From assembly GCA_000827495.1 (NCBI GenBank), contig KN817604.1, positions 106,965-170,964 of the forward strand: a stretch of DNA of 64,000 nt. The letters are read 5' to 3'. The translations under genes were made by a program, and so were the position numbers. Origin of the DNA: Hypholoma sublateritium FD-334 SS-4. Its lineage: Eukaryota; Basidiomycota; Agaricomycetes; Agaricales; Strophariaceae. Below the pieces are notes generated by a model. That model worked only from the letters and a program-made list of their open reading frames with translations, searched no databases and was not told the DNA's origin. Numbering within the stretch: position 1 is the stretch's first letter; every line of letters begins with the position of its first letter. Shown here piece after piece: positions 8,136 to 13,181 of the stretch.

Positions 8136-9997
8136 ATGCGCACCTCCGAAGCATTCGCAAAGTTTAAGAGGTTGTGGAAGGCGAGGACGAGAGCTTCGTT
8201 GCGAAGAGTAGCCAATGTTCAAGGTGCGTCGTTCCTGATCAGTGCTCATGAAAGTGACGTTGAATATTCGAATATGGACGGACTCATCACTCAGATGACC
8301 CCCTCGAAATTCTGGTAGGGGGCATATCTCCAAACTCAACACATTCCTCGAACCATCGGTTCCAATCTCCTAAAGCTCCGCCAGAAACCCAGAATCTGAT
8401 TTTGATAAATGCCATGAACTGGGTGTGCTGCGACCCAGCAGAACTGATCGCGTCTATATTGTGGCTTCACGGACCGCCGGGGTCAGGAAAGTCGTCGTTT
8501 GCCCGAACCATTGCTATGCGATGCGAAGACTCGGGGATTTTCGTCGCTTCGTTCTTCCTACACACCGACCCTGCGGGCACCAATGCGGGATACCTCGTTG
8601 CCACGCTTGTCAACCAGTTCACTCGGCATTTTCCTGGACTTTCAACATTCATCTCCAGAGCAATAGAAGGCGATCCATTTATATTTGGGAGGTCCTTGGA
8701 AGTGCAATTTCGGAGGCTGATATTCGAACCTATGTCCCTTCTCCGAGAAGATAATCTAATCTCCCGGGATTTTTCGCTATCCTTGGTGGTTATCGACGGG
8801 CTCGATCAGTGCGACAACAACACTGTCCAATCCAACATAATCCATGACATCGCCAACATTTTACAGAACTGCCCAATGTCGATTTTATTTCTCATCACGA
8901 GCTGCGCTCATCCACATCTCACGGTGGCATTTTCTACCAGGAATATCAGCAAAATGACGGTGCGTCTCCCGATAGACGACATGTATCTTCCACACGACCG
9001 AATACGCGTCATGCTTAACGATGGCATGAGCAATCTCAAGTCCACCCATTCGAAGAAGGATGAGCTTGCGCCCAGCTGGCCCCCTGCAGATCTCGTCCAT
9101 CAACTCGTGAAACGCGCTTCGGGACATGTTCTCTACGTATCGACGATGATAAAGCATCTCTCGCATTCTCTGGAACATCCAGCGAAACATCTTGATATCC
9201 TCCTAGAAAGCCATACGGTACACAACTACCACCCTTTCTCTGAGCTTGACGCATTGTATTCTCATATCCTATCCACCTCTTCCGACGTGCAAAGGGCCCT
9301 TTTCCTTCTTCACCATAAGATATACGGCGGCTTTTCCTCTGTACATGACTTTGAGTCGCTTATGTATATGGAAGTGGGATCCGTCCAGCATATCTTGTCA
9401 GAGCTCAAGGCAGTTGTAACCTGTGACAATGACACAATAACACTGCATCATTCTTCCTTCGCCGACTTTCTTTTGGACCCATCTCGCTGTGGACCGCTAC
9501 ATATGGATCCCGGGGATATACATGCGCGTTTCGCTCGTATGTGGTTCGAGCAGATTCGGAATTTTGGATGTAAGTTTCCAGATACGTTCACGCCAGGTTT
9601 ACGCGCCCCGTCACCGATAATGATGACAATCTTCCATCAGACGATCGCCCACCAGTGAGGTACAGGGTCAAGTGTTTACTGCACCACCTTAAGCACGCAA
9701 ACGCAACCGCCGAAATTCATGCCGACATCGTCAAATTTCGGGCCAATGTCGCGTTCGAACTGTCCTCGCCGAAAGTCGTGACTGTCACCCAGATGTCCGA
9801 CTTCCTGGGCGCGATTAGACATATGGTGAGCCTCATCGATTACATTGATGAAGCGTACTGATATACTGGCTCAGGACTTTGAAGACAGCCACGAACTTTA
9901 CATCGCTCATCTGCGCATGATGCATCCGATTGTGCAAGTCTATTTCCCAGAATATTATACCTCATTCTCTAGACTTCACCTCATCACATATGTATGA
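8136..9997 (+). CDS. NACHT-type P-loop NTPase, short form
   Basis: Four exons (8136-8223, 8295-9569, 9641-9825, 9875-9997) join in frame to 556 residues. The Walker A motif is WLHGPPGSGKSSFARTIA and the Walker B is SLVVIDGLDQCDN, as in the NACHT/nephrocystin-3-like NTPases expanded in mushrooms. A linker typical of the family (DPLEILVGGISPNSTH) precedes the NTPase. Phases 1, 1 and 0 match across the introns. After the NTPase comes a helical region (HHSSFADFLLDPSRCG) and then the protein stops at LHLITYV, with no WD40, ankyrin or TPR repeats. Such proteins are thought to act in nonself recognition and regulated cell death, but the role of this one is unknown. The start could lie further upstream. 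Confidence 0.82.
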
Positions 9998-10473
9998 GCT
10001 TAGCTCGGTTCGGCAGCTCAAAGCCGCTGATACCTTGAACGGCACTTTATCCGATGCACTGCCTGTCCTGTCTCAGATCAGTTTGACGTTTGATGCAAAG
10101 AATCTGTTTCGAAATATTCGCAGACCATGTTCCGTGGATGGAACGGCCGTTCAGGATAAGGCAGACGAAAGATATGTTCCGATTTGCGTTGCGCCAGTCT
10201 TCCTCCTTCAAATCGATGCGCCACTGCTCTCTACCCTCTCGTATCAAGTTGTGATTTGGGCTGCTACTGGTTCATGATGCTGATGTACGTCGCAATATTT
10301 ATAGCTGTTCATCAGCCGTTTACCAGATTTAACTACAAAGCCCCGCTAAGTAAGGAATATGCATATGGATTGTTAATAATCGTGTTATAAATAACTACGT
10401 ATACAGGAACATCAGCACTATATAAACGGATACCTTGCGCATCTGCTTTCCTGAATCGGCTGGTCCATCCATC
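9998..10473. other. Intergenic and promoter of the micro-exon gene
   Basis: Spacer between the NACHT gene and the next plus-strand gene. A TATA-like string (CACTATATAAACGG) at about 10416-10430 sits about 45 bp before the ATG at 10474 and is a plausible core promoter. Confidence 0.5.
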
Positions 10474-11529
10474 ATGCGCTTCCTCGCTCGAGCTGGTCTC
10501 GCTGTCATCTTTATCGCATCGCTCGTCGTATTCGGAACTGCTGCGCCAGTTCCTAGAAAACACCGATTCTCCGTTGCAGTACAATGCCCTCCGACGCTCT
10601 CTAGCAACCAACAAACATTCTCCGTCAGTGATACCAACAGCTGCGTGGATAGCCATGCGCTGTCCCAGGGTACTGGAACCGTGACTTCGCGGGAGGAACT
10701 GGAAATGGTGGTGCTAGTACGGCGCAAGAGTATTTTTACCAAGATCAAGGAAGCGTTCCAGGTGAGTTGTATTTCTATTGGAGTCTCTCAGATGACATGC
10801 TAATTTGTGCTCGCGAAGAGACTTGGACGTGGTATTAAGCACAGTAAGTCCCACTTTATACTCCCTCAGTGTGAGTGCGTACCGAACGTTGTGCTCCTAT
10901 AAAGTTGCCCAAAAAATTGGCCGAGGTATCAAGAAAGGTATGAACGATTTTAACAAGCTATTAGCCGATAGCTGTTACTCACCCTGTTACAGTGGCGCAA
11001 AAGATCGGACAAGGGATTAAGAAAGGTGTGACCGACTTCGAAAACTGAGTATCCTGACAATAATTACTCGTCTTATTACAGTTGCCCAAAAAATTGGACA
11101 TGGTATCAAGACGGGTACGTGATACTCACGCTATCGTTCCCATAATATATACTCAATTCAATACACTAGTGGCCAAGAAGATCGGACACGGTATTAAAAT
11201 TGGTGATTCCCTACCAAGTCGGTCAGCGCTGCTTAAACTAATTTTACTCGTCCACAATAGCCGCCCAGAGAGTTGGCCACTTCATCAAGACCACAGGAGC
11301 GAAGATCGCCAAAGTTGGCCTCAAAATCATCTCCACCATCGGAAAGACTGTTGGAAAAGTGCTATCATTCATACCCGTTGTTGGAAAAGTTGTTGGAAAG
11401 GCAGTAGAAGGCGTGAGCGAAGGTTTGAACAAGGCGTCAGATGCCATCCATGCCAAGATCGGCGGCAAGTTGGGAAAGGCGATGGATCGGATGAGCAAGG
11501 TGCAGAAGGTCGAAGGCTATATCCCATGA
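10474..11529 (+). CDS. Secreted cationic protein built from repeated 33-nt micro-exons
   Basis: Seven exons: 10474-10761, 10819-10843, 10905-10937, 10993-11025, 11082-11114, 11170-11202 and 11261-11529, giving 237 residues. Exon 1 encodes a signal peptide (MRFLARAGLAVIFIASLVVF, then GTAAPVPRKHR). Exon 2 encodes RLGRGIKH. Exons 3-6 are each exactly 33 nt, start and end in phase 1, and encode IAQKIGRGIKK, VAQKIGQGIKK, VAQKIGHGIKT and VAKKIGHGIKI. Exon 7 opens with a further degenerate unit (AAQRVGHFIKT) and continues as a Lys/Gly/Val-rich amphipathic region containing KVLSFIPVVGKVVGKAVEG. Every intron is 55-61 bp with GT-AG ends. The 11-residue units look like amphipathic cationic helices, as in membrane-active peptides. 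That function is inference; no family was recognised. Confidence 0.8.
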
Positions 11530-11984: not shown

Positions 11985-13181
11985 CTAATCGTTGAGAGTT
12001 GATGTATGAAAAAAATTGTACAAACTTTCCATCCTGTAGATTGGCTCCTTATCGAAAGAATGATCTGCTGCTATCTCATAGTACTCGACGTGGGAAGCTG
12101 TGGCCTTGAGCGCGGAGACCACATCTAGTGACTGTCGATGGGCTACCTTGCCATCTTGGTTTCCCGTGATTACGTAGATGGGCGGAGGCTGGAACTTCTC
12201 AGTTCGGAGGGATTGAGCCACGCTAAATGATTCCTCAGGAATACCAGTTCCATCGAGAAGTAGGCCAGAAAGAATTGCTCTAGTTTGTACACGCGTTAGC
12301 AAATTGTTGCTATCTCGTAGGAGAATTGATCTCACTCTTGTATCATATAATGGTAACACATAGCTCGCAATCCGTCGACAGGAGATGAACTGGTTTTGGG
12401 CGCGGAAGGATCAAGGAATGGCGCAACTTCCGCTCTATCAATAACGCGATCCATATATGATACAGGTCGCTGCTTTGTTTTCCAGAACGAGTCGAGGAGG
12501 TCTGTGATTGGATACAAAGCTGCGATGCCTCGCACGGGGCGTGGAATACTCAGCCCACAGGCTTCAAATCCGATGCCGGTACCGGCAAGAAGAGATAACC
12601 ATCCTCCCGCTGAGCTTCCGCTGAGAACCACGCGAGTAATGTCTACACGCTGTTGAGTCGCTTCCTTGAATTCTTCAGTATGAAGAAAATCCAGAGCCGC
12701 CTTCGCGTCAGCGAGTATTCCCGGCATTCTCGTCTGCGGTGCAAGTCGGTAGTCTGGAGAGATCAGGCAGAGATTATGAATTTCAGGGGCCGACAGCATA
12801 TGCGGCGCTATAGCTGTTTATTATAGTTAATATTATGCGCTATTGTCATAAACATGCAGTACACACCTTTCCTCGTTCCCTTCGAAAGCATATTTGGTTA
12901 ATTTACACCCCCCTCGTTGCCAAAGATTCGGCGAACTGGTTGAACGAACCTGAAGTAGTCCCCCACCTGTTATCAAAAAGTTCTAAATCACTCGTAGTCG
13001 CTTCAGAAGGGAGCGCTCTGAGCGTACCGTGCCACCAGAGAAATACAGGGGCTGGATTCTCCTTTGTCGCGGTGGTGGGAATGTATACGTCCATAGTTAT
13101 AGCGAGCCCATCGATGCGCTTGAAGATGAGTTCAATCGGGTCTTTAGAAACTCTGTGGAGAGGATTTGTCTCCATTGCCAA
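11985..13181 (-). CDS. Alpha/beta-hydrolase, esterase/lipase (HSL-like)
   Basis: An intracellular carboxylesterase/lipase-like enzyme of the alpha/beta-hydrolase fold-3 group. The start is MAMETNPLHRVSKDPIEL at 13181 (a second ATG lies 6 bp on). Splicing an intron out after WWHG restores the oxyanion-hole motif HGGGL. Next come CLISPDYRLAPQTRMPG, the nucleophile elbow LSGSSAGGWLS (Ser), VITGNQDGKVAHRQ (Asp) and AADHSFDKEP (His), so the triad is complete. Further introns lie near 12800-12860 and 12280-12340. The stop follows FFHTSTLND at 11985. No signal peptide is visible. The substrate cannot be told from sequence. Neighbours give no operon-like context. Confidence 0.86.

Follow-up and report, generated by a model that had tools for sequence, protein, structure and literature searches.

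Repeated 33-nt Micro-Exons in a Mushroom Gene Family Match Three Turns of a Predicted Amphipathic Helix

Introduction

What holds the size of an exon at exactly 33 nt four times in succession? The question is raised by a locus in a 64,000-nt stretch of the Hypholoma sublateritium genome (here called the window), for which a first-pass annotation had proposed a secreted protein assembled from micro-exons of identical size, each encoding one cationic amphipathic unit of 11 residues. It had further proposed that the repeat number could vary, by splicing or by recombination, and that the product might be a membrane-active peptide. The gene (W) is described here together with its relatives in the same genome, and explanations for its exon structure are weighed.

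Materials and Methods

The genome searched comprises 46.1 Mb in 281 contigs, and the window lies on contig C87. It yields 38 matches to hydrophobins, as fits a mushroom-type fungus. Because the search scores the best candidates only, the size of the family is at least seven loci; a weak match on contig C45 (E 2.48) was left out of this count. Gene structure, coding constraint, family membership, differences in exon number and periodicity were all computed. The chain scan looked on both strands of the window for four open exons of 33 nt, each preceded by AG and followed by GT, with introns of 45–75 nt. Splice parses were enumerated as all in-frame, open parses joining exon 1 with the last exon (exons of 15–60 nt, introns of 45–80 nt). 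Hydrophobic moments were computed for the six intact proteins over the region that starts where exon 1 ends and stops at the first IP/VP break. The last-exon alignment (exon 7 of W) took in the six intact members, and exon 1 was aligned for three members. Hairpins were sought by base-pair scan alone.

Results and Discussion

Structure of Gene W

W was read from the sequence as a seven-exon gene (nt 10474–11529, plus strand) specifying a product of 237 residues (Table 1). Introns 1 to 6 measure 57, 61, 55, 56, 55 and 58 nt, and all six have GT..AG ends. The four 33-nt exons, in phase 1 at both ends, were reproduced exactly where the first-pass annotation had placed them, and its introns (55–61 bp, GT..AG) and flanking exons were also recovered unchanged. 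Exon 2 had been taken to carry a partial unit, but exon 1 ends in AFQ, which together with the RLGRGIKH of exon 2 forms a whole unit of 11 residues. The supposed symmetry of all units holds for the four 33-nt exons and fails for exon 2 (25 nt, phase 0 to 1), which cannot be skipped in frame, so that only the 33-nt exons could be. The 11-residue periodicity continues in exon 7 for about two units past the first, uninterrupted by introns. The neighbouring genes specify a piece of an NLR-like NTPase upstream and an alpha/beta hydrolase downstream.

Table 1. Gene W and its neighbours in the window (nt positions), and loci of the W family in the genome.
Feature	Location	Strand	Description
Upstream neighbour	8264–9655	+	NPHP3_N above cut-off, NACHT just below
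GGCTGGTCC leader element	10458–10466	+	5' leader, 7 nt before ATG of W
GAGCTGGTCTC 11-mer	10490–10500	+	Signal-peptide coding region, nt +17 to +27; CUGGU-loop hairpin candidate
Exon 1	10474–10761	+	288 nt, ends in phase 0; signal peptide (by eye), pro-region, first helix turns
Dibasic site RR of exon 1	residues 83–84 of W		
Exon 2	10819–10843	+	25 nt, phase 0 to 1; residues 4–11 of the first 11-residue unit
Exon 3	10905–10937	+	33 nt, phase 1-1, (I)AQKIGRGIKK
Exon 4	10993–11025	+	33 nt, phase 1-1, VAQKIGQGIKK
Exon 5	11082–11114	+	33 nt, phase 1-1, VAQKIGHGIKT
Exon 6	11170–11202	+	33 nt, phase 1-1, VAKKIGHGIKI
Exon 7	11261–11529	+	269 nt; diverged unit AAQRVGHFIKT, two-helix C-terminal part, end YIP-stop
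Downstream neighbour	12335–12817	-	Abhydrolase_3
W	C87 (window)		Internal exons 25, 33, 33, 33, 33 nt
PA (L003)	C132		Internal exons 25, 33 nt
PB (L004)	C132		Internal exon 33 nt
PC (L005)	C132, about 85.2–85.9 kb		Broken copy adjoining intact PB
PD (L012)	C8		Internal exons 33, 33, 33 nt (phase 0)
PE (L014)	C40		Internal exons 25, 33, 33, 21 nt
PF (L015)	C40		Internal exons 25, 33 nt

The Gene Family

Whether queried with exon 7 of W or with the last exon of one of three paralogues, the genome returned the same seven loci each time. Exon 1 of PA, used as query, found six of the seven, with PD missed and PF matched only at E 0.055. PC, as judged by eye, has an interrupted reading frame and shows no micro-exon between its first and last exons. 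Weak matches on contigs C35 and C51 proved, when read, to hold no such gene.

Of the 17 internal exons in the six intact members, twelve measure 33 nt, four measure 25 nt and one measures 21 nt. The 25-nt exons are always exon 2 and run from phase 0 to phase 1 (W, PA, PE and PF). Micro-exon sizes are thus kept among the same-genome paralogues with which they were compared, a 25-nt exon 2 occurring in four of the six members and at least one 33-nt exon in every one. Identity to the last exon of W is 43–66% among the five intact paralogues, and all last-exon pairs except PA/PB (n = 14) are saturated or nearly so at silent sites (pS 0.68–0.90, dN 0.29–0.56). The PA/PB pair is younger (pS 0.29, dN 0.07). 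PA, PB and PE carry an extra, acidic-rich C-terminal tail past YIP (FIP in PE); W, PD and PF end at YIP.

Elements around the Start Codon

Two short elements flank the start codon of W. The first, the leader element GGCTGGTCC, recurs in the form GGCTGGYCC 3–9 nt 5' of the ATG in six of the seven family loci and is absent in PF. The second, GAGCTGGTCTC, is invariant at the same position in all seven loci, silent sites included; for its codons GCT, GGT and CTC the joint chance under family codon usage is about 0.023 per gene. The genome holds 21 exact copies of GAGCTGGTCTC, seven of them in the family (reversed control, 15), and the other 14 all lack both the leader element and an ATG placed as in the family loci. 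Around a CUGGU loop the 11-mer can form a stem of 3 bp in PF and of 4 bp in the remaining six loci; W, PA, PB and PC have C-G as the outermost pair, PD and PE have A-U. A stem around CUGGY can also be formed by the leader element, with 3 or 4 bp in PA, PB, PD and PE and only 2 bp in W and PC. The consensus loop of Smaug/Vts1 is given as CNGGN0-3 (PMC4053848), and the CUGGY-loop candidates of the family fit it. These candidate hairpins suggest that the whole family may be under post-transcriptional control.

Coding Constraint and Gene Models

The chain scan found a single chain in the window, which corresponds to exons 3–6 of W. It is open in phase 1 and also in phase 0, where its peptides resemble one another poorly. 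The phase-1 peptides agree pairwise at 7 or more of 10 residues. In 60 first-order Markov shuffles of the window a mean of 0.30 chains was found (maximum 4), with pairwise peptide agreement of at most 1 in 10. Differences among the four 33-nt exons of W number 3, 8 and 37 of 60 at codon positions 1, 2 and 3, and across nine phase-1 33-nt exons from five members the corresponding figures are 90, 116 and 222 of 360. Pooled values for the 33-nt exons of W are pS 0.83 and pN 0.11. Five of their six pairs have a pS of 0.73–1.04, and exons 3 and 5 are the closest (0.36). The micro-exons of W thus differ mainly at silent sites with the peptide kept, which argues that they are translated and that the copies are mostly old. 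A chance origin of the array was rejected by this silent-site pattern together with the shuffle test. In the micro-exons of PD the third-position excess is absent (10, 14 and 10 of 30).

The amphipathicity of micro-exons depends in part on the gene model chosen, a dependence that is limited by ranking the models among all parses by helix moment. The model ranked first in PA (of 4), PB (of 4), PE (of 128) and PF (of 7), and second in W (of 51) and PD (of 127). In W, a parse with exon 6 shortened to 21 nt has a moment slightly above that of the model, and in PD one rival parse has a higher moment; PD is the weakest gene model of the family. From these sequence comparisons we infer that the exon structure of W reflects a real gene and its splicing pattern.

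Helix Period and Exon Size

In all six intact proteins the hydrophobic moment peaks at 98.0–99.0 degrees per residue, and in each case none of 500 shuffles gave a peak as strong. Three turns per 11 residues correspond to exactly 98.2 degrees. The moments of eight successive units of W point within 30–83 degrees, across the exon junctions and into exon 7; the direction is not kept in the ninth unit, which lies at the proline break. Because the peak has the value of an 11/3 helix, a step of 11 residues (33 nt) keeps both the reading frame and the hydrophobic face. A step of 7 residues, as in the 21-nt exon of PE, likewise amounts to whole turns and is, by arithmetic, about 33 degrees off. The net charge of the helix region is +24 in 102 residues in W and +9 to +16 in the other members, so the cationic amphipathic character first proposed for W is borne out across the family by both the moment peak (six of six) and the charge.

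Splicing and Length Control

Short introns are read by intron definition, and exon skipping is uncommon among genes of this kind. Since the introns of W are short and of this type, its splicing is probably constitutive. It is conceivable, as in schistosome micro-exon genes (MEGs), that splicing sets the length, the 33-nt exons being skipped or shortened so that one gene yields helices of various lengths. Several features would permit this: the four 33-nt exons of W are all multiples of three and in phase 1-1, three of its six donors depart from GTRNGT (GTATGA, GTGTGA and GTGATT), and for both W and PA the parse enumeration includes in-frame variants with one 33-nt exon trimmed to 21 nt (7 residues, two turns), the size of an exon that PE carries. 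The intron lengths of 55–61 bp, which are of the intron-definition kind, and an exon 2 that cannot be left out in frame speak against it, and we regard control of length by splicing as unlikely, though not implausible. The cut to 21 nt occurs at an internal GT within a GGT glycine codon (exons 5 and 6 of W and exon 3 of PA) and leaves a unit that is four residues shorter and still in frame.

Growth of the Arrays

The repeat array had been proposed to be able to vary, and between loci this stands: 33-nt exons number four in W, three in PD, two in PE, one each in PA, PB and PF, and, as judged by eye, none in the broken copy PC. Ongoing change in W is not supported, because its units are far apart at silent sites and its introns have almost wholly diverged, and this divergence of units and introns speaks against recent turnover of the array. 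Tandem Repeats Finder reported no 88-bp array, as fits an old duplication, and only a 12-bp repeat at nt 11377–11399.

Relative to the 11-residue unit there are two intron sites: a phase-0 site, which separates residues 3 and 4, and a phase-1 site, which separates one unit from the next. The phase-0 site is that of intron 1 in W, PA, PE and PF, and it bounds the three 33-nt exons of PD; the phase-1 site bounds the 33-nt exons of W, PA, PB, PE and PF. Since the 33-nt exons of PD are in phase 0, arrays probably arose twice. From its sequence the first micro-exon of PD looks chimaeric, as its last 21 nt match the end of PD exon 1 at 16 of 21 positions and its first 8 nt are those of the start of W exon 2. 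The first 12 nt of PD micro-exons 2 and 3 match exon 2 of W, PA, PE and PF at 2–7 of 12 positions, and since their 5' parts lack this likeness the pattern is confined to the first micro-exon. In the last-exon tree W and PD are joined at 94/90, which is below the tool's own threshold. Exon 6 of W has its closest match in PA's only 33-nt exon (28 of 33 nt), and exon 3 is nearest to exon 5 of the same gene (28 of 33 nt). Among 253 intron pairs compared, introns 3 and 4 of W rank highest (z 3.28, near what multiple testing allows), and the other pairs have no clear common sequence.

The arrays probably lengthened by in-register duplication or unequal crossing-over of 11-residue coding repeats together with their short introns. 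Growth would have started from the phase-1 intron in W and four relatives and, separately, from the phase-0 intron in PD; 33-nt exons on both sites would be the expected outcome of either in-register unequal crossing-over or the duplication of an exon with its intron. Alternatively, the array could have begun as one exon with a coding 33-bp repeat, into each copy of which an intron was later inserted by an introner-like gain. Such an origin could account for the one fixed intron site in every unit, for the intron-free units of like periodicity in exon 7 and for the likeness of introns 3 and 4 of W. Beyond that pair, however, the introns share no clear sequence, different members repeat different sites, one in phase 0 and one in phase 1, and duplication of exon plus intron takes fewer steps, all of which make later intron insertion a doubtful explanation.

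The Protein and Its Possible Role

W would be made as a secreted precursor of 237 residues, in which a signal peptide and a pro-region ending in RR precede one long cationic amphipathic helix of 11-residue repeats and then a helical hairpin. The signal peptide was called by eye (RAGL..., ending AAP) and the pro-region extends over about 60 residues. An RR directly before the helix is found in W, PA, PB and PD and is absent in PE and PF; its presence in four of six members is consistent with Kex2 cleavage at this point. Single-sequence AlphaFold2 modelling of exon 7 returned helices at residues 2–34 and 37–84 (mean pLDDT 77.7, pTM 0.33, a weak model).

Pfam returned no family at cut-off for the window protein, Apolipoprotein (PF01442) scoring 15.9 bits against a cut-off of 90, and none above cut-off for the last exon of the first family member. 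A match to HCV_core in the last exon of another member (E 0.00035) was judged compositional. A weak match to Ponericin (E 0.013) occurred in one of the six last exons. The best hits of the PDB sequence searches had E values of 0.13 and 0.009.

Adding or losing one 33-nt exon would amount to three turns of an 11/3 helix and would leave both frame and hydrophobic face unchanged. The product would most likely lie along anionic membranes or other interfaces, with the length of the helix setting the length of contact; killing, coating and signalling are all conceivable roles there. Secretion, Kex2 cleavage, the recombination route and membrane action are what we infer from these features. Taken as a whole, the reading of W as a signal peptide, a pro-region to RR, a cationic helix of 11-residue repeats and a helical hairpin, with in-register growth of the array and a role at membranes or interfaces, is a reasonably probable one.

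The same layout might instead belong to a precursor that is cut into 11-residue peptides, either a Kex2-processed repeat protein or a multi-peptide antimicrobial precursor. The signal peptide (by eye), the KK that ends two of the six units of W and the RR that directly precedes the helix in four of six members would suit such processing. KR and RR are absent inside the W array, however, KK ends some units only, and the helix register is held over all junctions, which single peptides would not need; a peptide precursor is therefore improbable. That the W region is chance or decayed sequence and holds no gene is contradicted by the coding constraint, the chain-scan shuffles and the conserved paralogue models, and can be set aside with near certainty. 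The long helix with in-register repeats remains the reading preferred here.

Comparison with Known Systems

Amphipathic repeats of 11 residues and three turns that bind lipid surfaces are present in alpha-synuclein and the apolipoproteins, whose repeats are not known to be encoded one per exon. The family shares this 11-residue, three-turn period (six of six members) but has no sequence match to these proteins and is far more cationic.

Schistosome MEGs are described as having long flanking exons, the 5' one of which mostly carries the signal peptide, around central exons of <36 bp that are mostly symmetric; some of these genes encode amphipathic helices (PMC4671649). In all six family models a signal peptide (by eye) likewise lies in a long 5' exon and the 3' exon is long, and all 17 internal exons measure 21–33 nt, 13 of them being divisible by 3. 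Very small symmetrical exons are reported to make up most of the coding region of MEGs (PMC4350168); here, in contrast, micro-exons account for 22% of the coding sequence in W, 15% in PD and PE, 9% in PF, 8% in PA and 5% in PB. The family is therefore built like a MEG and yet is not filed as one, since its micro-exon share is 5–22%. It also differs in its fungal host, and in that a single 11-residue helix unit is repeated across its micro-exons.

Among fungi, the nank (NACHT-ANK) genes of Tuber melanosporum are cited as having micro-exons of 3 bp (PMC4986451, PMC10197012). Going by these citations, they share with the present family the use of frame-neutral micro-exons within a fungal gene family, but their exons are of 3 bp and their products are intracellular receptors, in contrast to the 33-nt repeat exons and signal peptide seen here. 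The transcription factor Xlr2 of Trichoderma virens is reported to use a micro-exon as a switch, and its authors describe research on fungal micro-exons as limited (PMC11121469). As reported there, Xlr2 is a further case of a micro-exon in a filamentous fungus, though a single exon without a repeat array. Kex2-processed repeat proteins (KEPs) of Agaricomycetes are characterised by a signal sequence and tandem peptide repeats flanked by Kex2 sites (PMC9769878). The family resembles them in its signal sequence (by eye) and short tandem repeats. Unlike KEPs, W has one RR (residue 83), placed before the array, and no KR or RR within it, and its repeats lie in separate exons. Other dibasic sites are RR at 98 and 107 in PD, and RR at 117 and KR at 183 in PF; PE has none. 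Among the matches listed from the open-licence literature, titles and the starts of abstracts mention no fungal secreted protein made from repeat micro-exons, which is weak evidence of absence.

Implications

More tentatively, these may be fungal micro-exon genes that arose independently of those in flatworms, in which the exon acts as a quantum of protein, 33 nt giving three helical turns and 21 nt two. With arrays born twice, in different intron phases but at one and the same size of 33 nt, the gene could then serve as a ruler of helix length in steps of whole turns, adjusted by recombination in the course of evolution and perhaps by splicing within an individual.

Exon size and a structural period of the protein are seldom locked together so plainly. 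If the reading is right, the family would be a clean case of exon-repeat evolution bound by reading frame and helix register together, and an independent fungal counterpart of the schistosome MEGs. It would also provide a natural length series in which the length of an amphipathic helix can be tested against membrane activity. A further implication would be that standard gene prediction may overlook or mangle small secreted mushroom proteins of this sort.
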